Shown: piece after piece, positions 3,853 to 17,618 of the stretch
How positions within the stretch are numbered: position 1 is the stretch's first letter
How the letters are laid out: the number at the start of each line of letters is the position of its first letter
Source: a virus
Strand: one strand, 5' to 3'
Length of the DNA: 27,164 bases
Virus record (IMG/VR): IMGVR_UViG_3300044825_001233
Span: 1 to 27,164 of that record
Notes under the pieces: generated by a model
The model's database searches: none
The model's input: the letters and a program-made list of their open reading frames with translations, nothing else
Told to the model about the DNA's origin: nothing
Program-made: the position numbers and the translations under genes

Positions 3853-4187
3853 AAAAGTGGCTGGCTTGTCTGTTGTTTGTCCCGGCTATGGCACGGGCTG
3901 AGTTTTGGACAGGGAATAATCTCTACGACAGGATGACAAGTTCTGAAGTATCCGAGCGAATACAGGCGCTGGGGTATGTCATGGGAGTATTTGATGTCTA
4001 TGTGAACATCACCTTCTGCCCCGGCAGCCAGAGCGGGATCACGGCTGGACAGATCCGAGACATGGCTACGGCATGGCTGGCTGCTAACCCTACGCAAAGA
4101 AACCGTAACGCAGAAGCGTTGCTCAATGAGATCTTTAAGAAAGCATGGCCCTGCCAAAACCGTAACAACGGGGGGACACGACTATGA
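3849..4187 (+). CDS. Secreted Rap1a/Tai-like immunity-family protein
   Basis: A 112-residue protein with a clear signal peptide (MKKWLACLLFVPAMARA, probable cleavage after residue 17). The mature part follows the Rap1a/Tai pattern: GNNLY near the N-terminus, a GYVMGVFDVY segment, then a Cys-Pro, an ITAGQIRDM helix, a WLAANPTQRNRNAEALLNEI segment and a closing AWPC. In Serratia and Pseudomonas such proteins neutralise type VI secretion amidase toxins in the periplasm. Here the first family cysteine (usually after the GN-x-L turn) is replaced by Arg-Met, so the usual disulfide may be lost. The phage role could be envelope protection, but that is inference. Confidence 0.6.
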   Translation: MKKWLACLLFVPAMARAEFWTGNNLYDRMTSSEVSERIQALGYVMGVFDVYVNITFCPGSQSGITAGQIRDMATAWLAANPTQRNRNAEALLNEIFKKAWPCQNRNNGGTRL

Positions 4188-4387
4188 AGATTGTCTTTTG
4201 GGCTTCTCTCATTGCTTTAGGTTTCCTATACATGGACCACAAGGTCGATAAGGCCCATGCCGAGGGATTCTCTGTGGGTATGCGATATGCCTTGAAATCT
4301 AACCCCCCGTCCGAGGAGCTCGAGCTGGTGTGTGCGGGTCTGTGGGTTGGGGAGCAGAGTCGTAAGCACCAGGAGAAAAAGAAATGA
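4184..4387 (+). CDS. Small membrane-anchored or exported protein
   Basis: A 67-residue protein with an N-terminal hydrophobic stretch (residues 2-16, KIVFWASLIALGFLY) that acts as a signal anchor or uncleaved signal, followed by a charged segment with HAEGFSVGMRYALKS and one Cys. It overlaps the secreted Rap1a/Tai-like gene upstream and a zinc-knuckle gene downstream by four bases each. It is probably an envelope protein co-produced with its neighbour. The function is unknown. Confidence 0.65.
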   Translation: MKIVFWASLIALGFLYMDHKVDKAHAEGFSVGMRYALKSNPPSEELELVCAGLWVGEQSRKHQEKKK

Positions 4388-4563
4388 GCGATGGATTTTG
4401 CAGCGAATGCAAGAAGCCTTGCCGGGAGGTCAAGAGAGACTTCGGTATCGGGGCTTATGAATACTGGGGGGCCACGGGTTCGTACCATAAGTGGCACTGG
4501 GTATCAGAGTGCTGCGATGGAGATGTTTTGCAGTCAATCGAGGAGATAGAAGATGAGGCTTGA
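4384..4563 (+). CDS. 59-residue Cys-rich (zinc-binding-like) protein
   Basis: The reading frame begins ATGAGCGATGGATTTTGC, overlapping the previous stop by ATGA, and gives MSDGFCSECKKPC at the N-terminus, a Trp/Tyr-rich middle, then ECCDGD. The CxxC-x3-C and CC groups could bind one zinc. It overlaps the methyltransferase start by 11 bases. The tight coupling on both sides argues that it is translated although very short. The role is unknown. Confidence 0.6.
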   Translation: MSDGFCSECKKPCREVKRDFGIGAYEYWGATGSYHKWHWVSECCDGDVLQSIEEIEDEA

Positions 4564-5164
4564 GACGGATAACGCCGACTACCATGTTTTGAAGAATGCG
4601 GTTTCGGCTATCAAAGGTGTGCCTGGGATGCTCTGTGAGATCGGGACCAGGCGTGGTGGTTCGCTGGCCCACATCATCAACACCCTTGGGGAGATGGAAG
4701 ACTTTGGCCGGAATATAGTCTTCATCGATCCATACGGGAACATTGAGTACGCCCAAAAGGATGGGGTGGTTCGGCAGCGCACCGATTACACCAACCTGAT
4801 GAGGAACGAAACCTTGTCGGCCCTTTATTACCACGTTGGGAAGCACCCAGTGAACCCTGTTCCCATGATCATGGAAGATACGGAATTTTTTAAGCGGTTT
4901 GCTGATGGCGTTCCGTTTTACCACGAGCACAAGGTTATTGAGACCCAATACGCCCTGGTGTTCTTTGATGGGCCGCACGATGTTACCTCTGTAATGAAGG
5001 AGATTGACTTCTTCCACTCCCGCAGCGCACCTGGGGCAATGTGGGTTTTCGATGATGTCGTTGGCTACTACGACCATGATTTCATAGAGAAAATGATTGA
5101 GAAGCTGGGCTGGAAGCTCGTTGAGAAGACAGACCGGAAGGCAAGCTACAAGCTAGGAGGCTGA
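4553..5164 (+). CDS. Class I SAM-dependent methyltransferase-like protein
   Basis: A 203-residue protein. Residues 25-40 carry a motif I-like LCEIGTRRGGSLAH loop for S-adenosylmethionine binding. Residues 56-60 (VFIDP) fit the acidic motif II, and ALVFFDGPHD then WVFDDV fit the later strands of the Methyltransf_24/TylF-type fold, whose members often modify small molecules or sugars. No DNA-methylase DPPY or NPPF motif is present, so a small-molecule, sugar or virion target is more likely than DNA methylation. GAGGAG at 4540-4545 supports the start. The substrate is unknown. Confidence 0.7.
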   Translation: MRLETDNADYHVLKNAVSAIKGVPGMLCEIGTRRGGSLAHIINTLGEMEDFGRNIVFIDPYGNIEYAQKDGVVRQRTDYTNLMRNETLSALYYHVGKHPVNPVPMIMEDTEFFKRFADGVPFYHEHKVIETQYALVFFDGPHDVTSVMKEIDFFHSRSAPGAMWVFDDVVGYYDHDFIEKMIEKLGWKLVEKTDRKASYKLGG

Positions 5165-5165
5165 C

Positions 5166-5246
5166 ATGGACCACCCTTGGATGTTTGTATCAATGATGCT
5201 GTTTGTTATGACCACGGTACTGTGGTGGGATGCCCGGCATGAATGA
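5166..5246 (+). CDS. 26-residue membrane peptide
   Basis: A very short frame (MDHPWMFVSMMLFVMTTVLW then WDARHE) that is almost all one membrane helix. AGGAGG lies at 5155-5160, seven bases before ATG, the best ribosome-binding site in this part of the window. It sits between the methyltransferase stop and the next gene, which it overlaps by eight bases. Single-helix phage peptides can be holin accessories, inhibitors or envelope modulators. None is indicated specifically. Confidence 0.5.
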   Translation: MDHPWMFVSMMLFVMTTVLWWDARHE

Positions 5247-5493
5247 GGCAGCCAGACTTGCGGCTTGGCTAGACGCTAATGCCAAGCACATGAAGTACGA
5301 AGACGAGCAGATCCAGATGAGGAAGGCGGCCAGAGAGCTGCGGTCCTTGGATCGTGAGATCGAGTCAAACCTAGATGCGTTGCAGTCAGCCCATGAGATG
5401 CTGGCTGAGATGAGAAAGATGCTTGAAGATGTATCGAAACAAGAAGCTCTTAGAGGTGGTCCGAGAATCCCCATGCCAGGCCTGTGGCGCTAA
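5239..5493 (+). CDS. Small coiled-coil protein
   Basis: An 84-residue charged helical protein: ARLAAWLDANAKHMKYEDEQ, then a heptad region rich in Arg, Glu and Leu (RELRSLDREIESNLDALQSA and HEMLAEMRKMLEDV). The start is ATG 5239; an in-frame ATG at 5230 is also possible. The 3' end overlaps the next gene by 65 bases in another frame, which is unusual, so the last 20 residues may carry less constraint. The function is unknown. Confidence 0.6.
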   Translation: MNEAARLAAWLDANAKHMKYEDEQIQMRKAARELRSLDREIESNLDALQSAHEMLAEMRKMLEDVSKQEALRGGPRIPMPGLWR

Positions 5494-5716
5494 GAATGGG
5501 ACTGTGGTGGCAGCGCACTCGAACCAGCTCCGGGACGGGAAGGGTCGGGGGATCAAGGCTCACGACTACCGGATCGCAGCCCTGTGTTACGAATGCCATT
5601 CAGACCTGGACCAGGGGGCCGGCATGACCAGGGAGGCCCGGGTCAATATGTGGGAGGAGGCCCATAGGAAGACCATTGGCTGGCTGTTTGAGAACGACCG
5701 CCTGTCTGTGAAATGA
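5429..5716 (+). CDS. YbcO/DUF1364-like Cys-His nuclease
   Basis: A 95-residue protein starting MYRNKKLLEVV. The sequence CQACG (residue 16 onward), then an AAHSN, a GKGRGIKAHDYRIAALC and a CHSDLDQG matches the layout of the DUF1364/YbcO family, small His-Me finger-type putative nucleases found in lambdoid ninR-like regions. The CxxC and CxxCH groups would bind zinc and the AH is the likely catalytic His. It is followed by a second possible nuclease that overlaps by four bases, so the pair probably acts on DNA recombination intermediates. Confidence 0.6.
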   Translation: MYRNKKLLEVVRESPCQACGAKNGTVVAAHSNQLRDGKGRGIKAHDYRIAALCYECHSDLDQGAGMTREARVNMWEEAHRKTIGWLFENDRLSVK

Positions 5717-6138
5717 AGCCCTTTGACCAGCAGCTCTTTGATGAGAACGACCGGATAGCCAAGGAGGCGGTCCGGGATTTCATCAAATACCAGTGGAACC
5801 TGGAGGCCATCGAGGGTGAGAAGTTTGGGGTGGATCTGGTAGTCAAGGATGGGGAGAAGGTAATCGGGTACGCCGAGGTCGAGCGCCGGCATAATTGGGT
5901 GGGCAAGTTCACCTTCCCCACGGTCCATGTACCGTACAGGAAGAGGAAATTTTTTGAGCAAGCCCCGGAAACAGCCCTGTTTGCGGTATCCCAAGACATG
6001 AGCCAGGCCATGTGGGCCCGGGGGGAAGACATCCTGGCCAGCCCGATAGTCAAGGTGGATAACCGATTTATGGCCGATGAGCCCTTTTATGACGTACCCG
6101 TGGATAAGTGGAAGACGGTCGAGCTCTTGCCCTTTTAG
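5713..6138 (+). CDS. Possible PD-(D/E)XK-type nuclease
   Basis: A 141-residue protein. The segment FGVDLVVKDGEKVIGYAEVE (about residues 38-57) has the Asp, then beta-hairpin, then E-x-E layout of the PD-(D/E)XK core (usual D...ExK, here with Glu in the Lys place). Strands around HVPYRKRKFFEQAP and TALFAVSQD could complete the fold. The call rests on this motif only. Its gene ends in TAG right against the promoter at 6139, marking the end of the first rightward operon. Confidence 0.4.
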   Translation: MKPFDQQLFDENDRIAKEAVRDFIKYQWNLEAIEGEKFGVDLVVKDGEKVIGYAEVERRHNWVGKFTFPTVHVPYRKRKFFEQAPETALFAVSQDMSQAMWARGEDILASPIVKVDNRFMADEPFYDVPVDKWKTVELLPF

Positions 6139-6167
6139 TTGACAATAATGCTCTGTAACCTTATATT
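6139..6167 (+). promoter_or_regulatory. Near-consensus sigma-70 promoter
   Basis: TTGACA at 6139-6144, a spacer of exactly 17 bases and TATATT at 6162-6167. The -35 is perfect and the -10 has one mismatch. It starts right after the stop codon at 6138. Expected transcription start is about 6174. This is the strongest promoter visible in the window. Confidence 0.85.
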
Positions 6168-6173
6168 CAGCTT

Positions 6174-6291
6174 AGCCAGCCCACCTGGCGACCCTACCTT
6201 CTTCTCTCCTAGCAGGGCGCTTAAGGTAGAACCTCCTCGGTGTCGATGCACCACAAACCCCTTGGCCTCTCGGTCAGGGGGTTTTTCTTTT
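6174..6291 (+). ncRNA. Candidate phage small RNA with an anti-Shine-Dalgarno loop
   Basis: The predicted transcript runs about 117 bases from the promoter to the terminator. A 7-base-pair stem (CTACCTT 6194-6200 with AAGGTAG 6223-6229) presents a 22-base loop holding TCTCCTAGCAGGGC (6205-6218). This loop is the exact reverse complement of the ribosome-binding site GCCCTGCTAGGAGA before the ParB-like gene (7731-7744). It also complements the sites before four leftward genes (12-15 bases). It ends with an intrinsic terminator and U-rich tail, as Hfq-dependent small RNAs do. An alternative is an early-terminated leader for the downstream operon. No start codon with a good ribosome-binding site is seen. 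Confidence 0.6.
6255..6291 (+). terminator. Intrinsic terminator
   Basis: AAACCCC (6255-6261) pairs with GGGGTTT (6278-6284). The stem extends inward to about 13 pairs, with two G-T pairs and a four-base loop. It is followed by TTTTTCTTTT (6282-6291). It ends the small transcript begun at 6139 and would also stop read-through from the first operon. Confidence 0.85.
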
Positions 6292-6412
6292 GTGGGCCAG
6301 GGAGTACATTGGTTTCGGGGCGGGGAACAAGAATTCCCGGCAACGTGGATTCGGTTGTTCGTACACACCCGCCCCCCTTGCACATTTCATCTCAAGCGAT
6401 TAACCTGTAGGT

Positions 6413-6480
6413 CTGCTAGGAGTGAAGAAGGTGCGTTACCACGTCCCGTGTGGTTTCGTCACCCCTTCACTCCTATGCAG
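6413..6480 (+). other. Long hairpin holding a CTGCTAGGAG Shine-Dalgarno
   Basis: CTGCTAGGAGTGAAG (6413-6427) pairs with CTTCACTCCTA-T-GCAG (6465-6480) with one bulged T. Inside, ACCAC pairs with GTGGT. The Shine-Dalgarno motif is therefore buried in the stem, and the small frame from GTG 6431 would be hidden until the hairpin opens. Confidence 0.65.
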
Positions 6481-6589
6481 CGAACTCCTCTCGAGAGCAG
6501 AGCGCTTGAATCGGCGGCCAGGAAGAAAAGACACCCAGCATATACACCCCGTGTTTGGGTTCCAGCCTGTCAGCGAGGGACTGGAGTAG
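6431..6589 (+). CDS. Possible 52-residue protein (uncertain)
   Basis: From GTG 6431 the frame reads MRYHVPCGFVTPSLLCSELL and continues basic (RAERLNRRPGRK) to TAG 6587. TAGGAG at 6417-6422 is eight bases upstream, a correct distance, and belongs to the repeated CTGCTAGGAG module. The whole start region is folded in the hairpin at 6413-6480. No family is recognised and the codon pattern is not convincing, so it may not be translated. Confidence 0.3.
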   Translation: MRYHVPCGFVTPSLLCSELLSRAERLNRRPGRKDTQHIHPVFGFQPVSEGLE

Positions 6590-6604
6590 TCGTGGAGGGA
6601 AGTG

Positions 6605-6721
6605 GTGGGACAAGACTCCATGATGAATGAATCGCTGCCTCCGGGGGACTGGGGCTACCTGTTAGCCTGGGTCGTGAGGGTGGGCTACCACCCCCTTGGG
6701 GAACCTATGGCCAGAGACTAG
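6605..6721 (+). CDS. Possible 38-residue protein
   Basis: From GTG 6605 (GGAGGG at 6594-6599, five bases before) the frame reads MGQDSMMNESLPPGDWGYLL and ends in a short Arg/Pro tail (GEPMARD) at TAG 6719. ATG 6620 or 6623 could also start it. The PPGDWGYLLAWVVRVGY stretch has the look of a genuine small phage protein, and the stop lies just before the ribosome-binding site of the next gene. No function is known. Confidence 0.4.
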   Translation: MGQDSMMNESLPPGDWGYLLAWVVRVGYHPLGEPMARD

Positions 6722-6729
6722 AGGAGACC

Positions 6730-7560
6730 ATGCAAGACCCCTTCAAGATAACCGAGCCGACCCTGATCTCATTCAGTGGGGGCCGCACCTCAGCCTATAT
6801 GCTATGGCGGGTGCTCCAGTCCAACGGCGGGATACCAAGCGATGCGGTGGTCTGTTTTGCTAACACCGGCAAGGAAGATCCAGCTACCTACCAATTCATC
6901 AAGGACTGCCAGGACCACTGGGGAGTCCACATCAACTGGGTCGAATACATCCCCGAGAAGCCTGGATTCAAGGTCGTAAACTTCGAGACGGCAGCCCGTA
7001 ACGGGGAGCCATTCGAGGCCGTGATCCGACACTACGCCAAGCTCCCCAACCCAGCTCAGCGGTGGTGCACCGGGATTCTCAAGATCCGCACCATGCACAA
7101 GTTTGTCCGAAGCCTGGGCTGGGAGCATGACGAGGCCGATAACAACGACTTTGTGGGGATCAGGTATGACGAGCCACGCCGGGCAGCCAAGGCCCCTATG
7201 GCCAAGATGCCCCTGGTGGCAGCCAAGGTCACCAAGGCCGATGTCTTAGACTTCTGGGCCAAGCAGCCATTCGATCTTCAGCTCAAGGTAATCAACGGGG
7301 AGACGGCTGCCGGGAACTGTGATCTCTGTTACCTCAAGTCCCTGCCCAAGATTGTGGCCCTCATCAGGGATAAACCTGAGAGAGCTCAATGGTGGATTAA
7401 GATGGAAAAGCTCATCCCGGACATTACAGAAGTCAAAAAGCCAGGGAACGGAAACACATTCCGGTCCGACCGGCCGAGCTACGAATCACTGTTACACAAC
7501 TACGAAAATCAAGGAGAACTATTCGATGACGGAGACATCTCGTGTTTCTGTGGAGACTGA
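6730..7560 (+). CDS. PAPS-reductase/PP-loop ATP pyrophosphatase-like protein
   Basis: A 276-residue protein of the adenine nucleotide alpha-hydrolase fold. The PP-loop is SFSGGRTSA (residues 14-22), then FANTGKED (43-50) and a CTGILK segment (113 on) typical of phosphoadenylyl-sulfate reductase relatives. Two further Cys groups, CDLC (197-200) and CFC at the C-terminus, could hold an iron-sulfur cluster or zinc. Phage homologues are known but their reaction is unsettled: sulfur transfer, DNA phosphorothioation (DndC-like) and tRNA thiolation are all possible. GAGGAGACC precedes the start. No dnd partners are in this window, so DNA phosphorothioation is not supported. Confidence 0.8.
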   Translation: MQDPFKITEPTLISFSGGRTSAYMLWRVLQSNGGIPSDAVVCFANTGKEDPATYQFIKDCQDHWGVHINWVEYIPEKPGFKVVNFETAARNGEPFEAVIRHYAKLPNPAQRWCTGILKIRTMHKFVRSLGWEHDEADNNDFVGIRYDEPRRAAKAPMAKMPLVAAKVTKADVLDFWAKQPFDLQLKVINGETAAGNCDLCYLKSLPKIVALIRDKPERAQWWIKMEKLIPDITEVKKPGNGNTFRSDRPSYESLLHNYENQGELFDDGDISCFCGD

Positions 7561-7723
7561 GCCATCGGACGATGAGCTGTTTGATATGGCGTTTGAAGCT
7601 CTGATTCCCCTGGCCAATCAAGACATCACCACCAAGGAAGTAACACTTGCAGACATCAGAAGGGCTAGAGAAGTCCTGAGATTTTTATCACCACGGGTTG
7701 CCAAGAGGAACAAATCCAAATAA
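7526..7723 (+). CDS. Small acidic-then-basic helical protein
   Basis: A 65-residue protein (MTETSRVSVETEPSDDELFD at the start). ATG 7526 is chosen because AAGGAGAA lies at 7511-7518. It overlaps the end of the PAPS-reductase-like gene by 35 bases in another frame. The C-terminal half (ADIRRAREVLRFLSPRVAKR) is a basic helix that could contact nucleic acid. Its codon GTA-ACA-CTT-G at about 7640 is a half copy of the dispersed palindrome. No function is recognised. Confidence 0.6.
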   Translation: MTETSRVSVETEPSDDELFDMAFEALIPLANQDITTKEVTLADIRRAREVLRFLSPRVAKRNKSK

Positions 7724-7733
7724 ACTGGTTGCC

Positions 7734-7743
7734 CTGCTAGGAG
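7734..7743 (+). promoter_or_regulatory. CTGCTAGGAG extended Shine-Dalgarno before the ParB-like gene
   Basis: The ten-base module with flanks GCC and A (7731-7744), seven bases before ATG 7751. All 14 bases are exactly complementary to the loop of the candidate small RNA (6205-6218), making this a likely target on the rightward mRNAs. Confidence 0.7.
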
Positions 7744-7750
7744 AAGAATA

Positions 7751-8578
7751 ATGACACGCTTACCGCTTACTGCCATCCGTCTCGATGGTGGCACACAGGC
7801 CCGTATTCGCATTGACGAGAAGGTCTTTGAAGAATACGCCATGAAGATGAAGGAGGGATCGGTATTCCCTCCGATCGTAGTATTCAAAGATCCCGATGGC
7901 GAGATATGGCTAGGTGATGGTTTCCACAGATACCACGCCAATAAACTCAATGGCGCAGAAGACATTGAATGCGAAGTAAGAGATGGAACGCAGCGGGACG
8001 CCAAGCTCTACTCATGGAGTGCCAACAAGAACCGTGGCCTCCAGATGACCTGGGAAGACAATCGCAAGGTCATACTCGAGATGCTCGAAGATCCAGAGTG
8101 CGCCAAGTGGAGCGATGCCGAGATAGCCCGTCATGTTGGCGTATCCAAGATGACAGTCGGCCGGATCAGAAAGAAAGCCAAGGGCGAGACTCCGCAGCCG
8201 AAAAAGCGGAAGTTCATCGACTCCAAGGGCCAAGAGAAAGAGATGAATACCGAGAAGATCGGTATCAAGGCCCCAGTAGAACAACCCGCCCCGGTCGCAG
8301 ACGACCGCATCGATGAGCTGGTAACACTTGTTACTTCTCTCTCGGAAGAGAACGAGAACCTCAAAGACAAGATCGCCATCGGCCAATGGGACGCCACCGA
8401 CATCGAGAAGATCGACATCCAGGAGACCGTAACAGAGTTACGCAACCAGGTGAAGGCCCTCGAGATCGAGAACAAGACGCTCAGGGAGAGCCGGGATATG
8501 TATCAGAACCGGAACGCAGAGCTCATGCGAACCGTGAAATCATTGCAGACGAAACTCAAGAAGCTGGAGGGGAAATGA
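7751..8578 (+). CDS. ParB/Srx-like domain protein with helix-turn-helix and coiled coil
   Basis: A 275-residue protein. Residues 1-95 match a ParB/sulfiredoxin-like domain: an N-terminal LPLTAIRLDG strand, FPPIVVFKDPDGEIWLGDGF then HR (55-60, the conserved G-D-G-x-H-R box that binds nucleotide in ParB), and later the ANKNRGLQMT segment. Residues 121-141 (SDAEIARHVGVSKMTVGRIR) form a helix-turn-helix. The last 85 residues are a coiled coil. Such phage proteins often act as nucleases, transcription switches or partition-like clamps. A GTAACA-CT-TGTTAC palindrome lies in its own gene. No ParA is in the window. Confidence 0.8.
   Translation: MTRLPLTAIRLDGGTQARIRIDEKVFEEYAMKMKEGSVFPPIVVFKDPDGEIWLGDGFHRYHANKLNGAEDIECEVRDGTQRDAKLYSWSANKNRGLQMTWEDNRKVILEMLEDPECAKWSDAEIARHVGVSKMTVGRIRKKAKGETPQPKKRKFIDSKGQEKEMNTEKIGIKAPVEQPAPVADDRIDELVTLVTSLSEENENLKDKIAIGQWDATDIEKIDIQETVTELRNQVKALEIENKTLRESRDMYQNRNAELMRTVKSLQTKLKKLEGK
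8321..8334. repeat. Dispersed palindrome copy 2, GTAACA-CT-TGTTAC
   Basis: Six-base inverted arms inside the ParB-like gene, read as V-T-L-V-T in the same phase as the other copies. A second, shorter palindrome GTAAC-AGA-GTTAC lies at 8429-8441 in the same gene. Confidence 0.6.
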
Positions 8579-8730
8579 TAGACATATCAGCAATTGTCAT
8601 TGAAATGCAGAAGTTACTCAGAGAGACATACGAGCAATTCAATGAGAAACAATACGATGATGCACTAGCCAATGCGGTCATTCTTAAAGCAGCAGCATCA
8701 GAGTTAGTAAAGGAAATGAAACACAAGTAA
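8575..8730 (+). CDS. 51-residue hypothetical protein
   Basis: The frame starts ATG 8575, overlapping the ParB-like stop by ATGA, with GGAGGGG before it. It reads MIDISAIVIEMQKLLRETYE and continues as one amphipathic helix ending in KEMKHK. Codon use is clearly more AT-rich than in the ParB-like and helicase genes on each side, suggesting a separate origin. The function is unknown. Confidence 0.6.
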   Translation: MIDISAIVIEMQKLLRETYEQFNEKQYDDALANAVILKAAASELVKEMKHK

Positions 8731-8778
8731 GAGGGCGCAAGCCTAGCCGACACCAGGCGGAACCTGGCAGGAGAAAAC

Positions 8779-10263
8779 ATGGAATTAGATTTACGGCCCC
8801 ATCAGGCCGAAGTTATCGAGGCATTACGAGAGGGATTTAAGCAAGGACATCGGGCGCAGCTCCTCTATGCACCCACGGGTTTCGGTAAGACCGAGGTGGC
8901 CATACACCTAATGAAGGCAACCCGAGACAACTACAAACGAGCAGCCATCGTTCTTGATCGAAATGTGTTGGTCGATCAGACAAGTCTGCGGTTATCCAAA
9001 TACAAGCTGCCCCACGGCGTCACCCAGGCCCAGCATTGGAAGTTTGACCCAGCAGAGCGGCTGCAAGTCTGTTCAGCTCAGACACTTGAGCGCCGATCAA
9101 AGCCACTACAGACAGATCTCCTCATTGTCGATGAGTGTCATATCACCCGTAAGCAGACGACCGACTACATCAAGGCCAATCCGAGCGTAAAGGTTATCGG
9201 ACTTACGGCCACCCCATTTACCAAAGGTCTCGGAGACATCTATACCAATGTGGTCTGCGGCTCCACGACCGGCAGCCTGGTTGAGGAGAAGTGGCTAACG
9301 CCATTGAAGGTCTATATCGCCAAAGAGATCGACATGACCGGGGCCAAGAAGGTGGCAGGCGAGTGGGCCCAGGATGTGGTAACCGAGCGGGGCATGAAGA
9401 TTACCGGGGATATTGTGGATGAGTGGGTGAAGATGACCCATCAGATATTCGGCCGGCCAAGGAAGACCATCGTGTTCTGTGCTGGCGTAGCCCACGGGGC
9501 AGACCTGGTGCAGCAGTTTGCTCAGAAGGGATACAACTTCGTCTCGATCTCATACAAAGACAATGACGACTTCAAGAAGGCGGCCATCGAGGACTTCGCC
9601 AAGCCCGACACCGAGATCCACGGCCTAATTGCTACTGACATTCTTACCCGAGGATTCGATGTCCCGGATGTAATGATCGGAGTATCGGCCAGACCATTCA
9701 GCAAGTCATTGTCCAGCCATATCCAGCAGATGGGCCGGGTAATGCGGCCATTCGAGGGCAAGGAGTTTGCTCTGTGGCTAGACCATTCAGGGAATTTCCT
9801 GCGGTTCAGGGAGGACTGGGATGAGGTCTATGAGGATGGGGTCAAGAGCCTAGACGGAAGGGTAGAGAAGGCTAAGCGGGAGCCAACCGAGAAGCAGAAG
9901 AAGGAATCCAAGTGCCCGAAGTGTGATCACCTGTGGCCCAAAAATTCAGATACCTGCCCGTCTTGCGGCCATGTAAAACAGAAGCGTAACCAGGTCGAGG
10001 CGGTAGCAGGAGAGATGTTCGAGCTCCAAGGCCAGGGTAAGCGGATGAAGGATGAGAAGCAGGGCTTTTACTCCGAGCTCATCTACTACGCCCGGGAGCG
10101 GAACTACAACCAGCACTGGGCAAGCCACAAGTATCGGGAGAAGTTTGGCGTCTGGCCTCGAGGTCTGGCAGACATCCCAATACCACCATCAATGAAGACA
10201 CTTAACTGGATCAAGCATAAGAATATCGCCTGGGCCAAGAGAATACAGAGGGACCGGGCATGA
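8779..10263 (+). CDS. Superfamily 2 DEAD/DEAH-box helicase with a zinc ribbon
   Basis: A 494-residue helicase of the SF2 type (UvsW/RecQ-like order). Visible motifs: Q-like LRPHQAEVI (5-13), Walker A APTGFGKT (31-38), motif II DECH (118-121), motif III TATPF (143-147), motif V ATDILTRGFDVPDV (285-298) and motif VI QQMGRVMRP (316-324). A zinc ribbon of two CPxC pairs (379-382 and 393-396) follows, then a helical C-terminal domain. It probably unwinds or reanneals replication forks or recombination intermediates. A small hairpin (CCAGG, CCTGG at about 8752-8766) and a CTGGCAGGAG ribosome site resembling the CTGCTAGGAG module lie before the start. Confidence 0.9.
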   Translation: MELDLRPHQAEVIEALREGFKQGHRAQLLYAPTGFGKTEVAIHLMKATRDNYKRAAIVLDRNVLVDQTSLRLSKYKLPHGVTQAQHWKFDPAERLQVCSAQTLERRSKPLQTDLLIVDECHITRKQTTDYIKANPSVKVIGLTATPFTKGLGDIYTNVVCGSTTGSLVEEKWLTPLKVYIAKEIDMTGAKKVAGEWAQDVVTERGMKITGDIVDEWVKMTHQIFGRPRKTIVFCAGVAHGADLVQQFAQKGYNFVSISYKDNDDFKKAAIEDFAKPDTEIHGLIATDILTRGFDVPDVMIGVSARPFSKSLSSHIQQMGRVMRPFEGKEFALWLDHSGNFLRFREDWDEVYEDGVKSLDGRVEKAKREPTEKQKKESKCPKCDHLWPKNSDTCPSCGHVKQKRNQVEAVAGEMFELQGQGKRMKDEKQGFYSELIYYARERNYNQHWASHKYREKFGVWPRGLADIPIPPSMKTLNWIKHKNIAWAKRIQRDRA

Positions 10264-11036
10264 ATTTCACAGTAGCTGACTTTGCCAGAGTTGCGCCATT
10301 CAGTCCTGTCAAATATATCTGGTTTGACCTATCTGACATCGAGGCTTTGCGCAAAGCGTATCGTAACTTTGCTGATGGTAGGAAGTTCACAGACGCCACC
10401 ACAAACGATTTGATTGAAGATATTCCAATGCCTTTCGATAACATGGCATTGATATTGTCGGTCAGCGATGAACGCAGAGACAAAGATGTGCGTATCGTAA
10501 TGAGTATTGAAAAGCAGGATGGTGTTTTGGTAATCAACGAATGGAGCACCAAACACAAACAGCCAGTCGCATGGCTGAAAATCCATGAGCGGCTGCACAA
10601 CAAACCAGAGCCAGGGTTCAATCCAGACTATCTCCAAGAAATGATGGGTAAGGGAGTTCCCTCGAGTGCGGTTGCCAGTCAGCTGCAAAAGCTCATGCAC
10701 TTTGTTTTGCCAATCTTTACTTGCCTTTGTTATTCAAAGCCGGAGAACGGGCATGAGATTGTTGGGTATCGATGCACCGATGACAACCCATCGAATGCTA
10801 AGCGGATCAGGAAGGGAAAGCGCCCATTATTTGAGTGGAATACGGTAAAGATCAGACAGCCAGAGCCGTCCGTATCGCTTGGCGGAACACACGCCAGCCC
10901 GAAGCCTCACGACCGCCGTGGGCATCAGCGTAGATACAAGAGCGGTAAGGTGGTTTACATCAGATCAATGACTATCAATAAGCACAAGATCCCCCAGGAG
11001 GGGTTTATCCATCACGACTATAAGGTGACAGCATGA
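10260..11036 (+). CDS. Conserved phage protein of unknown function
   Basis: A 258-residue protein. The C-terminal third contains a GGTHASPKPHDRRGHQRR segment followed by SGKVVYIRSMTINKHK and a final HHDYKV. This is a basic, His-rich pattern I have seen in phage proteins of undefined role and would read as a nucleic-acid-contact region. The N-terminal two-thirds is mixed alpha/beta with no signature. Codons are notably more AT-rich than in the helicase it overlaps by four bases, so this block (10260 to about 11600) may have a different origin. Confidence 0.65.
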   Translation: MNFTVADFARVAPFSPVKYIWFDLSDIEALRKAYRNFADGRKFTDATTNDLIEDIPMPFDNMALILSVSDERRDKDVRIVMSIEKQDGVLVINEWSTKHKQPVAWLKIHERLHNKPEPGFNPDYLQEMMGKGVPSSAVASQLQKLMHFVLPIFTCLCYSKPENGHEIVGYRCTDDNPSNAKRIRKGKRPLFEWNTVKIRQPEPSVSLGGTHASPKPHDRRGHQRRYKSGKVVYIRSMTINKHKIPQEGFIHHDYKVTA

Positions 11037-11194
11037 GCGACAGACCGATTGCATGGGTAATTTATCTCAACGATGAGACCGGGACGCCATTGTTTTTCGA
11101 AGACGATGGGATAACGAAACCTTGGGAGACGCTGGAGAAGTATCTCGGCAAGGCGATCCCGCTTTACGCAAGGAGGGAGTGTGAAGTCTCTTAG
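11033..11194 (+). CDS. 53-residue hypothetical protein
   Basis: The frame starts ATG 11033 (ATGA overlap with the previous stop) and reads MSDRPIAWVIYLNDETGTPL, then an acidic EDDGITKPWETLEKYLGKAI and a LYARRE end. The overlap, the coherent beta-hairpin/helix composition and the coupling to the next start support a real gene. No family is known to me. Confidence 0.6.
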   Translation: MSDRPIAWVIYLNDETGTPLFFEDDGITKPWETLEKYLGKAIPLYARRECEVS

Positions 11195-11369
11195 TAAACC
11201 CCAGGTCCAGAAGATCATCAACGAGATGGATTACCCGATTTCGTTATACAAGTTTGCCAAAGCCATCCAACAAAAACACAAGGAGATCAACCATGAGTGG
11301 AGTGGAGTTCGTAATAGTGGTAGGAATCGTGCAGCTGATAATCAAATTCTTATAACGGAGAAGAAATGA
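11181..11369 (+). CDS. 62-residue hypothetical protein
   Basis: Begins at GTG 11181 with AGGAGGGA at 11171-11178 just before it. The first 35 residues (KSLSKPQVQKIINEMDYPIS and an AKAIQQKHKEIN helix) look like a genuine protein. The last 25 residues (WSGVRNSGRNRAADNQILI) cover a second frame encoding a membrane peptide (11293-11355) and look less natural. It overlaps the next gene by four bases. Confidence 0.55.
   Translation: MKSLSKPQVQKIINEMDYPISLYKFAKAIQQKHKEINHEWSGVRNSGRNRAADNQILITEKK
11293..11355 (+). CDS. Possible 20-residue membrane peptide nested in another gene
   Basis: In a different frame from the surrounding gene, ATG 11293 follows AGGAG (11281-11285) by seven bases and reads MSGVEFVIVVGIVQLIIKFL to TAA at 11353. 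It is an almost pure transmembrane helix. The good ribosome site and helix-like composition make it a candidate for an overlapping mini-gene, but chance cannot be excluded. Confidence 0.4.
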   Translation: MSGVEFVIVVGIVQLIIKFL

Positions 11370-11611
11370 AACCCAAGACACCAAAACAACCAAGAGCCCT
11401 GCAACTGGCTGATGCAATCCTTGAAAAGGAATGCACCAAGACTACAAAGTTCCACGCTGCCAACGAGCTTCGCAGACTGTATGAATTAAGCAAAATGCTC
11501 TATGACGAAATGAACAAATCTTACTCCGCTCAATCAAGGGCCAAATCGGAAATAGTCGGATCACAAAACATCCTTGGAGCAGCAGTAATGAAAGCGAGGG
11601 AGCAGCTGTGA
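11366..11611 (+). CDS. 81-residue helical hypothetical protein
   Basis: Basic N-terminus (MKPKTPKQPRALQLADAILE) then a long amphipathic helix with AANELRRLYELSKMLYDEMN. No known domain. GGAGAAGAA at about 11357 gives a ribosome site, and the stop overlaps the next gene's GTG start. The composition is AT-rich like its upstream neighbours. Confidence 0.65.
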   Translation: MKPKTPKQPRALQLADAILEKECTKTTKFHAANELRRLYELSKMLYDEMNKSYSAQSRAKSEIVGSQNILGAAVMKAREQL

Positions 11612-12390
11612 ACCAACAACAACTAGACGAGCTGTATCGATCGATTAGGGCAGACAATGAGAAGCGGCCGGTCGGGATAATGATCGCCACCCCGATGTAT
11701 GGGGGGATGTGCCACGGGGATTACTGCATCGGAGCGGTCAAAGCTGTTGGGCTGCTGCGGTCCCTGGGGTTCATCGTAAGCTACCAAGCTATGTTTAACG
11801 AGAGTCTGATTACCCGGGCGAGGAATAACCTAGCCGTTACTTTCCTGAACGATCCGAACATGGATTACCTGATGTTCATCGACTCAGACATTGGATTCGG
11901 GGAGCAAGACATCCTGCGCCTAGTCTTGGCAGACAAGCCCATCTCGGCTGCGGCCTATCCCCGTAAGCGGATCAACTGGTCGATGTATAACAAGGCGATC
12001 AAGGCTGGGAAAGACAACCCACGGGACTGGACGGGAGACTTTATCTTTAACACCGTAGGGATCAATCCGACCGAAGATGACTGGGGAATGATCGAGGTAA
12101 CCCATGCACCCACGGGATTCATGCTCATCCATCGGAAGGTATTCGAGACCCTCCAGAATGTGGTCCAGGAATACGAGGATGTAATCGATGGCAAGACCGT
12201 CAAGGGCTGGGATTTCTTCAAGGTAGGCGTAGGCAAGAACGGCCGCTACACCAGCGAGGATTACTGGTTTTGCAACGAGTGGCGGGAGACCGGGGGGAAG
12301 ATCTACATGAACCCCTATATCCACCTTACTCACACCGGGAGCTATACCTTTGCCGGCAACCTGGCCCGGATGGGGACCGAGGCGTTATGA
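11608..12390 (+). CDS. Phage glycosyltransferase-like protein (GT-A type)
   Basis: A 260-residue protein. An N-terminal IMIATPMYGGMCHGDYCIGA strand-loop and a LMFIDSDIGF segment carrying a D-x-D-like motif are as expected for nucleotide-sugar- and metal-binding GT-A enzymes. Later motifs are AAYPRKRINW and ending SEDYWFCNEWRETGGKIYMN, a typical C-terminal acceptor region. It starts at GTG 11608 (GAGGG upstream), overlapping the previous stop. Such phage enzymes modify nucleotides, DNA bases or virion surfaces; the acceptor is unknown. Confidence 0.72.
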   Translation: MNQQQLDELYRSIRADNEKRPVGIMIATPMYGGMCHGDYCIGAVKAVGLLRSLGFIVSYQAMFNESLITRARNNLAVTFLNDPNMDYLMFIDSDIGFGEQDILRLVLADKPISAAAYPRKRINWSMYNKAIKAGKDNPRDWTGDFIFNTVGINPTEDDWGMIEVTHAPTGFMLIHRKVFETLQNVVQEYEDVIDGKTVKGWDFFKVGVGKNGRYTSEDYWFCNEWRETGGKIYMNPYIHLTHTGSYTFAGNLARMGTEAL

Positions 12391-12662
12391 CCGAGATTGG
12401 CGAGATCTACTGGCAGCTCGAGCAGCACAAGCAGCTCCGGGGAGGATGCTCCTGCGGGGATTCCACGATCCTGGGGGTGATCCACTCAGACACCAAGCCA
12501 TGCTCCCTGCCAATCGCCCACCTGCCTTTGACCGAGCACCAGATCCAAGACATCGGGGTGAACTACGCAGACCTGGGTGGCGACATCGGGTGCAAGAACT
12601 GGGAACCATTTGTAAGGGCCATAGAGAAGGCGCATGGGATCGGGGGGATCAATGAGGTTTGA
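12387..12662 (+). CDS. 91-residue hypothetical protein
   Basis: Starts ATG 12387 (ATGA overlap with the glycosyltransferase) and reads MTEIGEIYWQLEQHKQLRGG, then a CSCGD pair, later a lone Cys before SLPIAHLPL, and a final NWEPFVRAIEKAHGI helix. The Cys group could bind metal. No family is recognised. The 3' end overlaps the primase start by 11 bases. Confidence 0.65.
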   Translation: MTEIGEIYWQLEQHKQLRGGCSCGDSTILGVIHSDTKPCSLPIAHLPLTEHQIQDIGVNYADLGGDIGCKNWEPFVRAIEKAHGIGGINEV

Positions 12663-13473
12663 GGATTTTGCAAGGGCCCACGGGCTGATTATTAACTCCC
12701 TGGTCCCGAACAAATGGGTGGCCACGCCCACCGAGGATCACCCCAGGAAGCGGAACGGCCGGTATAAATTCATGGGGGACATTGGCTGGGTTCAGAACTG
12801 GGCCACCATGACCAAGCCCGAAATGTGGCGGAGCGTAACACCTGTTACACCCCAAATCCGCCAGGCCATCCGAAGGGCAGACGATGAGCGCCGGGACGCA
12901 GCCGAGAGGGCGGCAGCCAAGGCCGGCTGGATCCTGCACCAGACGGAGCTCCTGCACCACCCATACCTAGAGAAAAAGGGATTCCCAGACGAGACCGCCA
13001 ATGTCTGGGTGAAAGACGGGCAGAAGATCCTAGTGATCCCGATGCGGATCAATAACCGTATCGTGGGGGCCCAGCTCATCGATGAACAGGGGCAGAAGAA
13101 ATTCCTCTATGGTCAAACGACCAAGGGGGCAGCCTTTACCATAGACGCAAAGGGCCTCCCTATTTTTTGCGAGGGATATGCCACAGGGCTCAGCGTCCGG
13201 GCCGTTATGAAGGCGGTAAAAATGCGCTACACCATCTACATCTGTTTCTCGGCATCGAACCTCGAGCACATAGCGAGGGGCATCAATGGAGGGATCGTCA
13301 TCGCAGACAACGATCCGAATCAGGTGGGGGAAAAAGCGGCTAAAGCTGCACTCAAACCATATTGGATCTCCCCCGCAGTCGGGGAGGACTTCAACGATTT
13401 TCACAATCGGGTCGGTCTGTTTCAAGCCAGCCAGTCCCTTAAAAAGATTCTTATCCATGCTGCTCACGCATAA
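12652..13473 (+). CDS. Toprim-domain primase-like protein
   Basis: A 273-residue protein starting MRFEDFARAHGL (the in-frame ATG at 12634 is less likely, as GGGGGGAT lies just before 12652). The N-terminal part resembles phage primase leaders. The C-terminal Toprim domain shows the conserved Glu in LPIFCEGYATGLSV and an acidic GIVIADNDPN loop, the metal-binding elements of DnaG-type primases. The Walker helicase motif is absent, so the helicase partner is probably the SF2 enzyme encoded upstream or a gene outside this window. It overlaps the leftward sigma-like gene tail to tail by 23 bases. Confidence 0.78.
   Translation: MRFEDFARAHGLIINSLVPNKWVATPTEDHPRKRNGRYKFMGDIGWVQNWATMTKPEMWRSVTPVTPQIRQAIRRADDERRDAAERAAAKAGWILHQTELLHHPYLEKKGFPDETANVWVKDGQKILVIPMRINNRIVGAQLIDEQGQKKFLYGQTTKGAAFTIDAKGLPIFCEGYATGLSVRAVMKAVKMRYTIYICFSASNLEHIARGINGGIVIADNDPNQVGEKAAKAALKPYWISPAVGEDFNDFHNRVGLFQASQSLKKILIHAAHA
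12835..12848. repeat. Dispersed palindrome copy 3, GTAACA-CC-TGTTAC
   Basis: Identical to copy 1 (653-666), inside the primase gene, again read as V-T-P-V-T. It lies between the N-terminal region and the linker to the Toprim domain. Confidence 0.6.
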
Positions 13474-13720
13474 GCCGCAGAAACTTGGCCTCGATCTGAC
13501 GCACCCTCTCTTTAGTAATCCCAAAGGGTTTCCCGGCCTCGTTGAGCATAGCACCCGCAGCCCGGGCCTTGAGTATCTCGTAGTATTTATCCCTCGAGGC
13601 TTGGCCCAGGTTGGTGTAGAGGGCATCAAAATCGCCTCTACTGGGGAATGGAACGAGCTTGTATGGGTGGGCTCCGCCCGTATAGATGGGCACTTTGCCC
13701 TCGCCTTGTCTTAGGTTCAA
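13451..13720 (-). CDS. Sigma-70 region 4-like helix-turn-helix protein
   Basis: An 89-residue protein. Residues 55-85 (AGAMLNEAGKPFGITKERVR then QIEAKFLRLM) match the -35-binding helix-turn-helix of sigma-70 region 4, including the hallmark G-I-T-K-E-R-V-R-Q-I-E-A run. No other sigma region is present, so it may be a small sigma-like or anti-sigma-type regulator that redirects host polymerase. TTG 13720 is used as start: it overlaps the upstream stop as TTGA and AAGGAG lies six bases before. It is the last gene of the leftward operon. Confidence 0.75.
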   Translation of the reverse strand: MNLRQGEGKVPIYTGGAHPYKLVPFPSRGDFDALYTNLGQASRDKYYEILKARAAGAMLNEAGKPFGITKERVRQIEAKFLRLMREQHG

Positions 13721-13926
13721 TTCATGCTCCTTCTCTCAAGTTCATCAAATGCGGCATCGATCCGCTCCACCACAAAAGTAATAAAACCCCGTTTATCTTT
13801 CCCGGAAAAAGCCCCGGCCTGGGCTAAAAATAGCGTCAGAGCCGGGACCACTACATCGAGCTTCTCGCCTTCCAGGGACCGAGTAACCCTCTGAATCAGG
13901 CGGCTGTATTCATGCTCAATGCTCAC
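13717..13926 (-). CDS. 69-residue hypothetical protein
   Basis: A helical protein starting at GTG 13926 with GAGGAGG at 13939-13933. It reads MSIEHEYSRLIQRVTRSLEG, a hydrophobic VVVPALTLFLAQAGAFSG stretch, then an RGFITFVVERIDAAF helix. The hydrophobic part is short for a stable membrane anchor. It is coupled by overlap to both neighbours in the leftward operon. No family is recognised. Confidence 0.65.
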   Translation of the reverse strand: MSIEHEYSRLIQRVTRSLEGEKLDVVVPALTLFLAQAGAFSGKDKRGFITFVVERIDAAFDELERRSMN

Positions 13927-14090
13927 GCTGCCTCCTCGATCTCAGAGAATCGATATTCGAGTCGGTTCTCGGGCCAGGGAAATTCTGAATCGTCATCCTC
14001 GATAACGACCCGATCCCCCCATACCTCAACCACGACCCCGGTAATGTGCTGATCGGTTACTCGCACCTTATCCCCGATTTGATAGCTCAT
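13923..14090 (-). CDS. KOW/SH3-like small beta protein
   Basis: A 55-residue protein, MSYQIGDKVRVTDQHITGVV, then WGDRVVIEDDDSEFPWPENR. The alternation of short strands and glycines looks like a KOW or SH3-type barrel, a fold that binds nucleic acid or protein partners. ATG 14090 is chosen over upstream starts because AGGGAGGC lies before it. It overlaps the next leftward gene by 23 bases. Confidence 0.6.
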   Translation of the reverse strand: MSYQIGDKVRVTDQHITGVVVEVWGDRVVIEDDDSEFPWPENRLEYRFSEIEEAA

Positions 14091-14598
14091 CGTATGCCTC
14101 CCTGGTCTCTGTAATCCCGAACATTTCATCGATATTCCTAGGCGCATCTTTGAGTTTGAATGTCTCATCGATACCCTCCACAAAACGGCCGCAGAAATCC
14201 ATTCCTGGCTCGTAGTAGTAAGCCTGAATACCAAAGCCCATTTCGGTCAGTCTCTCGTATGCACCAGTCGGCGGCGACCATGCCGAATCGAATGAGACGG
14301 TAAAACAATTTCCCTCCAGCACCGCATCGTTTTCTTGCTCGTCTCGGCGGCCAATATCCCACTTGGTCCCCCAGTTGGCTAAGCACCAGTCATACCAGTC
14401 TCGGAACCCGTATTTATCCAGGTTCCGGGCCTGTTCCGGGGTGGGCTCACCGCACATGGATTGCGTCTGCCGTAGTTCAATCGGGCAGGGGATCAAGGTT
14501 TGCAGGAATTCGCCCGTATTCCACGCCTCGGCAGCCCCCTGAATCATGGCTAGATCGGGGTGGGTGATGGTCAGTTTGTTGTTACACCAGTTTGGCAT
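14068..14598 (-). CDS. Api92/YubB-like (DUF1281) protein
   Basis: A 176-residue protein. The N-terminal MPNWCNNKLTITHPD, a central NWGTKWDIGRRD and a FDSAWSPPTGAYERL segment fit the DUF1281 (Api92/YubB) family found on phages and conjugative plasmids, where the function is not settled. The final part (GFGIQAYYYEPGMDFCGRFV) fits its ferredoxin-like core. The CTGCTAGGAG module is the ribosome site, eight bases before ATG. Confidence 0.75.
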   Translation of the reverse strand: MPNWCNNKLTITHPDLAMIQGAAEAWNTGEFLQTLIPCPIELRQTQSMCGEPTPEQARNLDKYGFRDWYDWCLANWGTKWDIGRRDEQENDAVLEGNCFTVSFDSAWSPPTGAYERLTEMGFGIQAYYYEPGMDFCGRFVEGIDETFKLKDAPRNIDEMFGITETREAYDELSNRG

Positions 14599-14605
14599 TT
14601 CAATT

Positions 14606-14615
14606 CTCCTAGCAG
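14606..14615 (-). promoter_or_regulatory. CTGCTAGGAG extended Shine-Dalgarno before the Api92-like gene
   Basis: On the leftward strand, CCTGCTAGGAGA reads just before ATG 14598. The 12 bases 14605-14616 are complementary to the loop of the candidate small RNA at 6174-6291. Confidence 0.65.
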
Positions 14616-14637
14616 GTTGTGATTGCCGAATGACAAT

Positions 14638-14665
14638 CCGATAACCCTCGAGGGAGGGCTATCGG
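14638..14665. other. Hairpin between leftward genes
   Basis: CCGATA (14638-14643) pairs with TATCGG (14660-14665) and CCCTC (14645-14649) with GAGGG (14654-14658), one mismatch, loop GAGG. No T-run follows on the leftward strand, so it is not a standard terminator. It could be an RNA-processing or stability element between the genes at 14675 and 14598. Confidence 0.55.
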
Positions 14666-14674
14666 GTGGCACTC

Positions 14675-15052
14675 TTACCAAGCGGCCAATTCCTTGAACG
14701 CCTTCTGATACTCCCGGTGGCTGGCAAATGATCCGACCTCGAGGCAGTAATCCAGGAAATCATCGGCCATGAAATGACCCTGGGCAGCCTCATCGTATGA
14801 TCGGCCAAGTTCCTTGTAAGACTCCCCGGCATACTTGGATTTCAAGACGAATTTCAGCTTGGTCCATAGCTGGTGGTCATATCCCCCCGGGCAGAGATCT
14901 ACCCCATCAACACGCCCATACCCGTCATAAGATCCTTCGATCTTCTTCCCGTCCGGGTAGAGCACGACCACCTCGTTTAACTCAGGATACCCCCGGCCAT
15001 CGTGAACGACCGGAAGCTGCGACTTGGCACAACACTTTGAAAAAAATCCCAT
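14675..15052 (-). CDS. Hypothetical phage protein, 125 residues
   Basis: Starts MGFFSKCCAKSQLPVVHDGR, followed by a NEVVVLYPDGKKIEGSYDGY beta region and a charged helical end. The double Cys at the N-terminus (CC) is unusual for a cytoplasmic protein; there is no signal peptide. The stop lies ten bases from the intergenic hairpin. No function is recognised. GAGGTGAATC precedes ATG, a modest ribosome site. Confidence 0.75.
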   Translation of the reverse strand: MGFFSKCCAKSQLPVVHDGRGYPELNEVVVLYPDGKKIEGSYDGYGRVDGVDLCPGGYDHQLWTKLKFVLKSKYAGESYKELGRSYDEAAQGHFMADDFLDYCLEVGSFASHREYQKAFKELAAW

Positions 15053-15055
15053 GAT

Positions 15056-15307
15056 TCACCTCATAACGGGTAAGACGGGTTGATATTCGCTAGTGGTGTT
15101 TAGGACCCCAGCATCGTTTCCCTCATCATCGGCTGCTGGCCATACAAGGTGGCCGTTATCGAGTTCAAGAACGACTGGCCGATGGGTCCAGCCCATATTC
15201 TTGCGCTCGGTCTCGGTCATGTATCGAACCGCCTTGATCCGGCGGCCGACTAGCTGATCGTGTGCAATCCGGGTCCAGCGGGTCTCGTTATCGAGTAGTT
15301 CGTTCAT
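15056..15307 (-). CDS. 83-residue hypothetical protein
   Basis: ATG 15307 reads MNELLDNETRWTRIAHDQLV, then a basic GRRIKAVRYMTETER segment, a RPVVLELDNGHLVWPAADDE region and a proline-rich end. A GTG at 15319 is an alternative start, but GGTGGGGG lies just before 15307. It overlaps the next leftward gene by four bases. Function unknown; the strand-rich composition resembles the small barrel proteins nearby. Confidence 0.6.
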   Translation of the reverse strand: MNELLDNETRWTRIAHDQLVGRRIKAVRYMTETERKNMGWTHRPVVLELDNGHLVWPAADDEGNDAGVLNTTSEYQPVLPVMR

Positions 15308-15558: not shown

Positions 15559-15565
15559 GGTCATT

Positions 15566-15607
15566 CTCCTAGCAGGTTGAACCGGGAAACCGTCCCGGCA
15601 GCGGTCA
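15566..15607 (-). repeat. Intergenic hairpin plus CTGCTAGGAG module, copy at 15.6 kb
   Basis: Leftward order: TGA stop (15607-15605), hairpin CCGGGA/TCCCGG (15582-15598), then CTGCTAGGAG (15575-15566) and the start codon of the next gene. The leftward sequence GCCGGGACGG-N-TTCCCGG recurs at 17158-17176 before the same ten bases. Confidence 0.7.
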
Positions 15608-15781: not shown

Positions 15782-15789
15782 GGTTCCCC

Positions 15790-16097: not shown

Positions 16098-16198
16098 CGG
16101 AAAACCTCCTTAGTGTTCAGATCAAGACTCCCCCGTCTGCGGTCTCGGGCCTTGCGGCCGTTTGCGGTCTCGGGGGGAGTTTCGCCCTGCTGGGCTCA

Positions 16199-17132: not shown

Positions 17133-17140
17133 TTTCTAAA

Positions 17141-17184
17141 CTCCTAGCAGGGAAAAAGCCGGGAACCCGTCCCGGCGGCGGTCA
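17141..17184 (-). terminator. Hairpin with T-run plus CTGCTAGGAG module, copy at 17.2 kb
   Basis: On the leftward strand: stop TGA (17184-17182), hairpin GCCGGGA/TCCCGGC (17176-17158, loop of five), then TTTTT (17157-17153) and CTGCTAGGAG (17150-17141). The hairpin and T-run form an intrinsic terminator, which would limit read-through into the genes below unless they have antitermination or their own promoter. Confidence 0.6.
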
Positions 17185-17385: not shown

Positions 17386-17393
17386 TGTTTCAA

Positions 17394-17408
17394 TCTCCTA
17401 GCAGGGCG
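17394..17408 (-). promoter_or_regulatory. CTGCTAGGAG module before the first leftward gene
   Basis: The leftward sequence CGCCCTGCTAGGAGA (15 bases) is fully complementary to the small RNA loop (6205-6219), the longest match in the window. Upstream, GGAA-CCTT/AAGG-TTCC (about 17408-17434) can fold as a hairpin. Confidence 0.65.
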
Positions 17409-17447
17409 GAAACCTTTGCGGCGTAAGGCTTCCAGGGTTTTAGTCGA

Positions 17448-17613: not shown

Positions 17614-17618
17614 GGGGA

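Follow-up and report, generated by a model that had tools for sequence, protein, structure and literature searches.

The question raised by this locus is whether a phage makes a small RNA that controls a set of its own genes. The window, by which we mean the whole stretch of DNA analyzed, is a 27,164-base IMG/VR virus fragment carrying PAPS-reductase, ParB-like, helicase, primase, terminase, and portal genes, and its terminase is 52-57% identical to those of marine and freshwater phages such as 023Pt_psg01, Pelagibacter phage HTVC027P, and DSL-LC04. Approximately 590 bases without an obvious gene separate gene 5713-6138 from the PAPS reductase gene at 6730. An earlier note on the sequence had proposed that this gap encodes a trans-acting RNA with a hairpin loop antisense to the ribosome-binding sites of several phage genes. 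Sequence comparison points to such an RNA, here called RNA1, which quite likely represses a scattered set of phage genes at the level of translation and in turn pairs with an RNA partner of its own, here called RNA2.

A predicted small RNA unit in the noncoding gap

Inspection of the sequence and folding bore out the promoter, the hairpin, and the terminator that the earlier note had read in the gap. The features assigned to the unit are as follows.

6139..6167, + strand: RNA1 promoter, sigma70-type, TTGACA-17-TATATT (from sequence; promoter type also found in relatives)
6174..6292, + strand: RNA1, predicted sRNA of ~118-120 nt with three stem-loops and a terminator (from the fold and >35 distinct homologues)
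6175..6189, + strand: SL1 of RNA1, with the C-rich loop CCCAC (fold; homologues)
6194..6229, + strand: SL2 of RNA1, stem CTACCTT/AAGGTAG, presenting the anti-SD loop (fold; homologues)
6204..6217, + strand: TCTCCTAGCAGGGC, antisense to a repeated start sequence (exact complementarity; covariation)
6239-6252, + strand: SL3 of RNA1 (fold)
6255..6292, + strand: RNA1 intrinsic terminator, hairpin 6255-6284 plus T-run (fold; stem conservation)

The promoter is the only 11/12 promoter match within 4000-20000 (16 kb), and in relatives TTGAC..-17/18-TATAnT or TACATT precedes the loop. RNA1 has an MFE of -45.1 (z = -3.1 versus dinucleotide shuffles), and of the features that bear on Hfq binding only a U-tail is visible. 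Among 25 homologues, 8 of the 10 pairs of the terminator stem show two-sided changes that keep the pairing; RNAalifold on a plain MAFFT alignment recovered the terminator alone, because loop lengths vary. The short 5′ hairpin SL1 beats shuffled sequence over 16 lineages (combined P of 8e-10, independence assumed), and its loop reads CCCAC, UCCCC, UCUCC, or ACCCC in relatives. SL2 exceeded shuffled sequence by only a modest margin (combined P of 0.018, independence assumed); a first test of its stem, based on unconstrained duplex energy, was insensitive and was replaced by the second, which gave this value. The antisense core, CTCCTAGCAG at 6206-6215, sits at the tip of SL2. The antisense loop does lie in a hairpin, as first described, but a few of its bases are paired in the MFE structure, and the apical hexaloop is CUAGCA. 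Rfam searches of the window gave nothing at the gathering threshold and chance-level hits only at E<=5. We conclude that RNA1, judged by its sequence alone, has the makings of an sRNA: its own promoter, an intrinsic terminator, and no conserved ORF.

The start sites complementary to the loop

The motif CTGCTAGGAG was found at five start sites, on both strands and dispersed over 10 kb, each 7 to 10 nt upstream of an ATG.

7734..7743, + strand: target SD of the ParB-like gene 7751-8578 (exact loop complement)
17395..17404, - strand: target SD of gene 17182-17385, 67 aa (exact complement; the orthologue in L184/L247 has the covarying CCGCTAGGAG)
17141..17150, - strand: target SD of gene 16866-17132, 88 aa (exact loop complement)
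15566..15575, - strand: target SD of gene 15304-15558, 84 aa (exact loop complement)
14606..14615, - strand: target SD of gene 14068-14598, 176 aa, with weak Api92-like/DUF1281_C similarity (exact complement)

All five loop complements listed in the earlier note were exact in position and length (14, 15, 12, 12, and 12 nt), but the list had missed the best complement, a sense copy of CTGCTAGGAG at 6413-6422 in a second noncoding region, which belongs to RNA2. In all, CTGCTAGGAG occurs exactly seven times; 1.76 occurrences are expected with one mismatch allowed, and no shuffle reached seven. Predicted pairing of the SD sites with SL2 ranges from -25 to -33 kcal/mol, compared with -7 to -9 kcal/mol for the 16S anti-SD at the same sites.

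Two near-identical, terminator-like GC hairpins (15582-15607 and 17159-17184) lie directly upstream of two of the target SDs and recall the extended form of the start-associated sequence (SAS) known from cluster K phages. Separately, palindromic GTAACACCTGTTAC repeats occur at 653-671, 8321-8339, and 12835-12853, two of them identical over 19 bases, and are possible protein-binding sites.

RNA1 homologues in related phages

Relatives were collected from IMG/VR contigs in several ways. The ParB-like protein gave 13 relatives as a query and 80 loci as a profile. A pattern of promoter plus loop gave 36 stretches, ~23 of which were real units with a terminator and the remainder chance matches in coding sequence, and a scan requiring the terminator gave 37 distinct RNA1 sequences. 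Further RNA1 versions beyond that scan were found in L184, L247, L243, L181/L182/L187/L240, L186, L248, and others. Two kinds of match were rejected: CTCCTAGCAG upstream of ParB in L196, L199, L202, and L206 is the reverse strand of a target gene's SD rather than RNA1, and the simple pattern CCTGCTAGGAG-n-ATG, sought across viral contigs, was dropped since, among the matches listed, it gave single matches, as chance predicts. With the ParB profile, bacterial genomes yielded no relative, and thus neither a prophage nor a host was identified. The RNA1 pattern had six matches in bacterial genomes, and at none of them was there a similar unit together with a group of motif genes. Three of the six were a single recurring Bacillus/Neobacillus locus, where the pattern had matched the arm of a terminator. 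Searches of named phages with the RNA1/RNA2 region gave no match, and the motif was absent from the 30 kb checked of 023Pt_psg01, the nearest phage by terminase.

The >35 distinct RNA1 versions in IMG/VR contigs lie mostly 0.3-1.9 kb upstream of the ParB-like gene and share one anatomy, in which the promoter is followed by a short hairpin whose loop is C-rich, then by the anti-SD hairpin and a terminator. Sequence outside the core is not constant, and the flanks have diverged. SL2 stems differ entirely between lineages and include GCAC/GTGC, GTCC/GGAC, CTACCTT/AAGGTAG, GCCGTC/GACGGC, TGCCATCA/TGATGGCA, and TACCGTCA/TGACGGTA. The RNA1 copy of the motif is always antisense, at a hairpin tip, and within a terminated unit.

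Covariation of loop and targets

Covariation of the loop with its targets, which the earlier note had suggested looking for in relatives, was found. Genomes with a CUAGCA loop carry TGCTAGGAG at 70 of 74 distinct targets, and the three genomes with a CUAGCG loop carry CGCTAGGAG at 14 of 16. Counted over nonidentical genes, the loop-target combinations are A-T 70, A-C 4, G-C 14, and G-T 2; both G-T cells are wobble pairs, and the four mismatched A-C cells include L183, which has an AGCAG loop and CGCTAGGAG at ParB. The loop CUCCUAGCGG is shared by L184 and L247, whose targets have the versions CCGCTAGGAG/ACGCTAGGAG: all seven start sites are CGCTAGGAG in L247, as are six of the seven in L184, where the seventh is TGCTAGGAG and would form a G-U wobble. 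L203 has the loop CUCCUAGCGGC and CGCTAGGAG at three of four sites, and here the change to G occurred in a different RNA1 background, the sister L151/L183 having CUAGCA. L185, a sequence without the RNA1 region, has CGCTAGGAG at its sites, as in L184/L247. The change is also seen within orthologues: the 67-aa gene MTKHI... has CCTGCTAGGAG in the window, whereas its L184/L247 orthologue has ACCGCTAGGAG; orthologues of the ParB-like gene likewise change with the loop. In L186 and L248 the loop has shifted to UUAGCAGUUG, and the start sites are CAACTGCTA.

The motif also tends to occur where RNA1 does. Sufficient flanking DNA was available for 46 ParB loci, and two or more motif genes were present in 23 of the 27 with RNA1 versus 5 of the 19 without (Fisher P of 1.4e-4; Mann-Whitney P of 9e-7; related contigs treated as independent), and genomes without RNA1 are mostly without the motif. 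RNA1 was looked for in the exceptions with motif genes, L202, L206, L208, L140, and L246, and was not found in the DNA examined. The earlier note had counted relatives that keep the motif and lose the loop as evidence against its reading. A few contigs are of this kind, namely, L202, L206, and L208, which have two to three motif genes each, and the association is therefore strong rather than absolute. We conclude that, at the level of sequence, the unit, its conservation, and the covariation of loop and targets are established. RNA1 shows predicted base pairing, backed by covariation, with mRNAs encoded elsewhere, as a trans-acting antisense sRNA would. The covariation and the conservation of the promoter-hairpin-terminator unit support the pairing with SD sites of several genes first proposed for this locus.

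RNA2, a probable neighboring partner RNA

Downstream of the RNA1 terminator lies a second putative transcription unit, which we define as RNA2.

6378..6406, + strand: RNA2 promoter-like site, TTGCAC-17-TAACCT (read from sequence; TTGCAA-17-TAATCT in relatives)
6413..6480, + strand: RNA2 5′ hairpin, the 5′ arm of which (6413-6432) is complementary to RNA1 6196-6215 at 19/20 positions (complementarity; own-versus-swapped test)
6500..6640, + strand: conserved noncoding body of RNA2 downstream of the hairpin (similar to L183/L203; not in Rfam)

Many relatives show the same order: the RNA1 terminator, TTGCAA-17-TAATCT, a sense motif within ~10 bases in the 5′ arm of a hairpin, and a noncoding body. 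The sense copy is absent from the GC-rich relatives L142, L151, L164, L178, and L203. Within the RNA2 body, RF02932 was detected above the gathering threshold in L129, L132, L142, L163, and L221; in window RNA2 it was neither detected at gathering nor credible at E<=5.

RNA2 is the strongest predicted partner of SL2, at -41.3 kcal/mol versus the -25 to -33 kcal/mol of the SD sites, and pairing better with the sRNA seed than the mRNAs do is what a sponge would require. Pairing of its 5′ arm with RNA1 continues past the core, for instance through GGAAAAAATGTG in L132, GCGTCACGG in L172, and ATCAAAAGCGAG in L186, and this additional pairing differs in each lineage. With the core masked, own RNA1-RNA2 pairs from 21 lineages averaged -15.5 kcal/mol versus -7.1 kcal/mol for swapped pairs, and no mean as low as that of the own pairs arose in 50,000 permutations, nor in the 20,000 permutations of an earlier test on 17 lineages. 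The alternative offered at the outset, that the loop is an inverted copy of an intergenic element, is thus right insofar as a sense copy lies downstream, but that copy belongs to an RNA that coevolves with RNA1. We conclude from these sequence comparisons that RNA1 and RNA2 coevolve across 21 lineages and that RNA2 is a functional partner, not debris.

In L136 the repeated start motif is now AAGGGGCAA (seven genes) and the old motif is gone, yet the RNA1-RNA2 match is retained at 15 of 16 positions, which indicates that the pair outlasts a particular regulon.

Several other elements were noted in relatives. The AAGGGGCAA start motif occurs in both L134 (five genes) and L136 (seven), around ParB and 7-9.5 kb downstream, and in L136 its AAGGGG may pair, as read by eye, with the SL1 loop UCCCCUUG of an RNA1-like RNA. 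A second repeated start motif, ACGAGGCCA, marks up to seven genes of a minus-strand cluster in L239, L234, and L228, and no RNA antisense to it was found in these three. Downstream of RNA1, L151, L164, L178, and L142 have a further terminated noncoding RNA with the elements GTCGG..TTGACAC..CCGGC and CAAGCCCAAGT..CACTAA.GGGTTTTTT.

Alternative explanations

One way to account for the tight RNA1-RNA2 match is that RNA1 mainly controls RNA2, in the manner of RNAI/RNAII and perhaps in connection with replication or the RF02932 RNA, and that the SD sites are secondary or decoys. The strength of the RNA2 pairing, its persistence in L136, and the position of RNA2 just upstream of replication genes are consistent with this possibility. 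We consider it unlikely, if worth serious attention: unrelated genes keep the SD motif upstream of them, the motif changes along with the loop, and it is mostly missing without RNA1, so the genes are indicated to be real partners in most genomes.

A second explanation is that a phage regulator, e.g., the ParB-like protein, binds CTGCTAGGAG as DNA and that the copy at 6206 is just another site. Covariation alone is insufficient to decide the matter, as altered protein specificity would shift all sites together, and the ParB-like gene is itself the commonest carrier of the motif (upstream in 27 loci). However, the sites hold an SD at a fixed 7 to 10 nt from the start codon, the RNA1 copy keeps its antisense orientation and hairpin-tip position in a terminated unit, and a common operator would not explain lineage-specific RNA1-RNA2 pairing well beyond the motif. 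A DNA site is thus very improbable.

Two further readings are scarcely tenable. That RNA1 is a terminated leader (attenuator) with incidental complementarity, as the earlier note had also considered, would fit its place upstream of the PAPS reductase and ParB genes on the same strand, but seven exact copies stand against none expected, loop and targets covary, RNA2 has a separate promoter-like site conserved in many relatives, and the self-contained unit is followed by different sequences in different lineages, which makes a leader unlikely. Equally hard to credit is a merely favorable SD spread by gene duplication or recombination: the motif does include AGGAG, but its carriers are unrelated proteins (69 blastp groups), and the CTGCT upstream of the SD is conserved without adding 16S pairing and changes with the loop.

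A model for the circuit

We therefore return to RNA1 as a trans-acting regulator. RNA1 would be a stand-alone small RNA made by the phage, and its SL2 loop would pair over 10-15 bp with the SD regions of scattered phage genes, at least five in number, that share CTGCTAGGAG and lie on both strands. Such pairing would most likely block 30S binding at the tagged genes as a group; in the simplest reading, RNA1 out-competes the ribosome at all of them, and we infer both that the two RNAs are transcribed and that the effect is repression rather than activation. RNA2 would open with a copy of the start sequence and bind SL2 along its entire 5′ side, in a duplex stronger than that formed by any mRNA. 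It would thereby out-compete the mRNAs for RNA1, most likely titrating RNA1 or triggering joint cleavage, a sponge role that we infer from the pairing. The 5′ arm of RNA2 is internally paired within its own hairpin, and thus RNA1 must invade it or bind cotranscriptionally. The timing of the regulon would follow, its translation being set by the ratio of RNA1 to RNA2.

Comparison with known systems

Antisense sRNAs with a sponge are a known kind of system; what appears to be new here, on the sequence evidence, is a predicted phage sRNA that is conserved, has a tagged regulon, and comes with a coevolving partner RNA. Most antisense RNAs known from phages act on a single transcript. Host anti-SD sRNAs with C-rich loops, such as the alphaproteobacterial "cuckoo" type and RNAIII/Rsa of S. 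aureus, pair with the SDs of many mRNAs. These host RNAs address generic SDs, whereas the specificity of RNA1 would come from the longer, phage-specific extension CTGCT. The sponges AgvB and SprY mimic mRNA targets to bind an sRNA, as RNA2 would, and SroC is an RNA sponge of the same type. Sponges of this type act on host sRNAs, whereas RNA1 and RNA2 are encoded in tandem in one phage. Rfam family RF02932, Betaproteobacteria-1 RNA, forms part of RNA2 in five relatives, and RNA1 lies outside it; the function of RF02932 thereby becomes testable.

Closest in action is the C4 antisense RNA of P1/P7, likewise an RBS-directed phage RNA, which stops translation of a phage gene by pairing of its loops around the ribosome-binding site (PMC12197685). 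C4 lies upstream of and acts on one downstream transcript, that of the ant operon, whereas RNA1 would address at least five genes dispersed over 10 kb on both strands and has a coevolving partner RNA. No match to the C4 family was found in Rfam searches of the window.

Closest in layout is the SAS of cluster K mycobacteriophages, a short repeat with AGGAG directly upstream of 11-19 genes, with one antisense copy that is not at a gene start (PMC3203893). Its role was given as unknown in 2011 and in 2024 (PMC3203893, PMC11373665). Sequence and host are unrelated to those of the window, the SAS being GGGATAGGAGCCC and the window motif CTGCTAGGAG, and the likeness is one of analogy only. In the K1 phages Adephagia, Anaya, LastHope, Enkosi, and Validus, the antisense SAS copy is the exact loop, CCUCCUAUCC, of a long hairpin (loop at 58682-58694 in Adephagia, JF704105, and at 59870-59882 in Anaya, JF704106). 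In Adephagia the hairpin falls between genes 92 and 93, the gap in which the onset of late transcription has been reported (PMC11373665). The exact loop was not found at the SAS antisense locus of Pixie, Hurricane, MacnCheese, Shadow1, or Ekdilam, and it is not conserved in K3, Unicornvirus, and Amginevirus. Pixie, Shadow1, and Ekdilam, when checked, kept the SAS though the loop had diverged, and for this reason the K1 hairpin is a lead to an RNA answer to the SAS riddle, not a demonstration.

If the model is correct, environmental phages would encode, conserved across many of them, an sRNA with a tagged multigene regulon and a built-in RNA partner. More tentatively, and as a reading somewhat less likely than not, these systems may represent an undescribed, widespread, RNA-only phage circuit, made up of an anti-SD sRNA, a regulon with a start-associated tag, and a coevolving adjacent decoy, that arose separately in K1 mycobacteriophages and would explain the SAS. 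The role of the cluster K SAS thus becomes testable, in a system workable in M. smegmatis.
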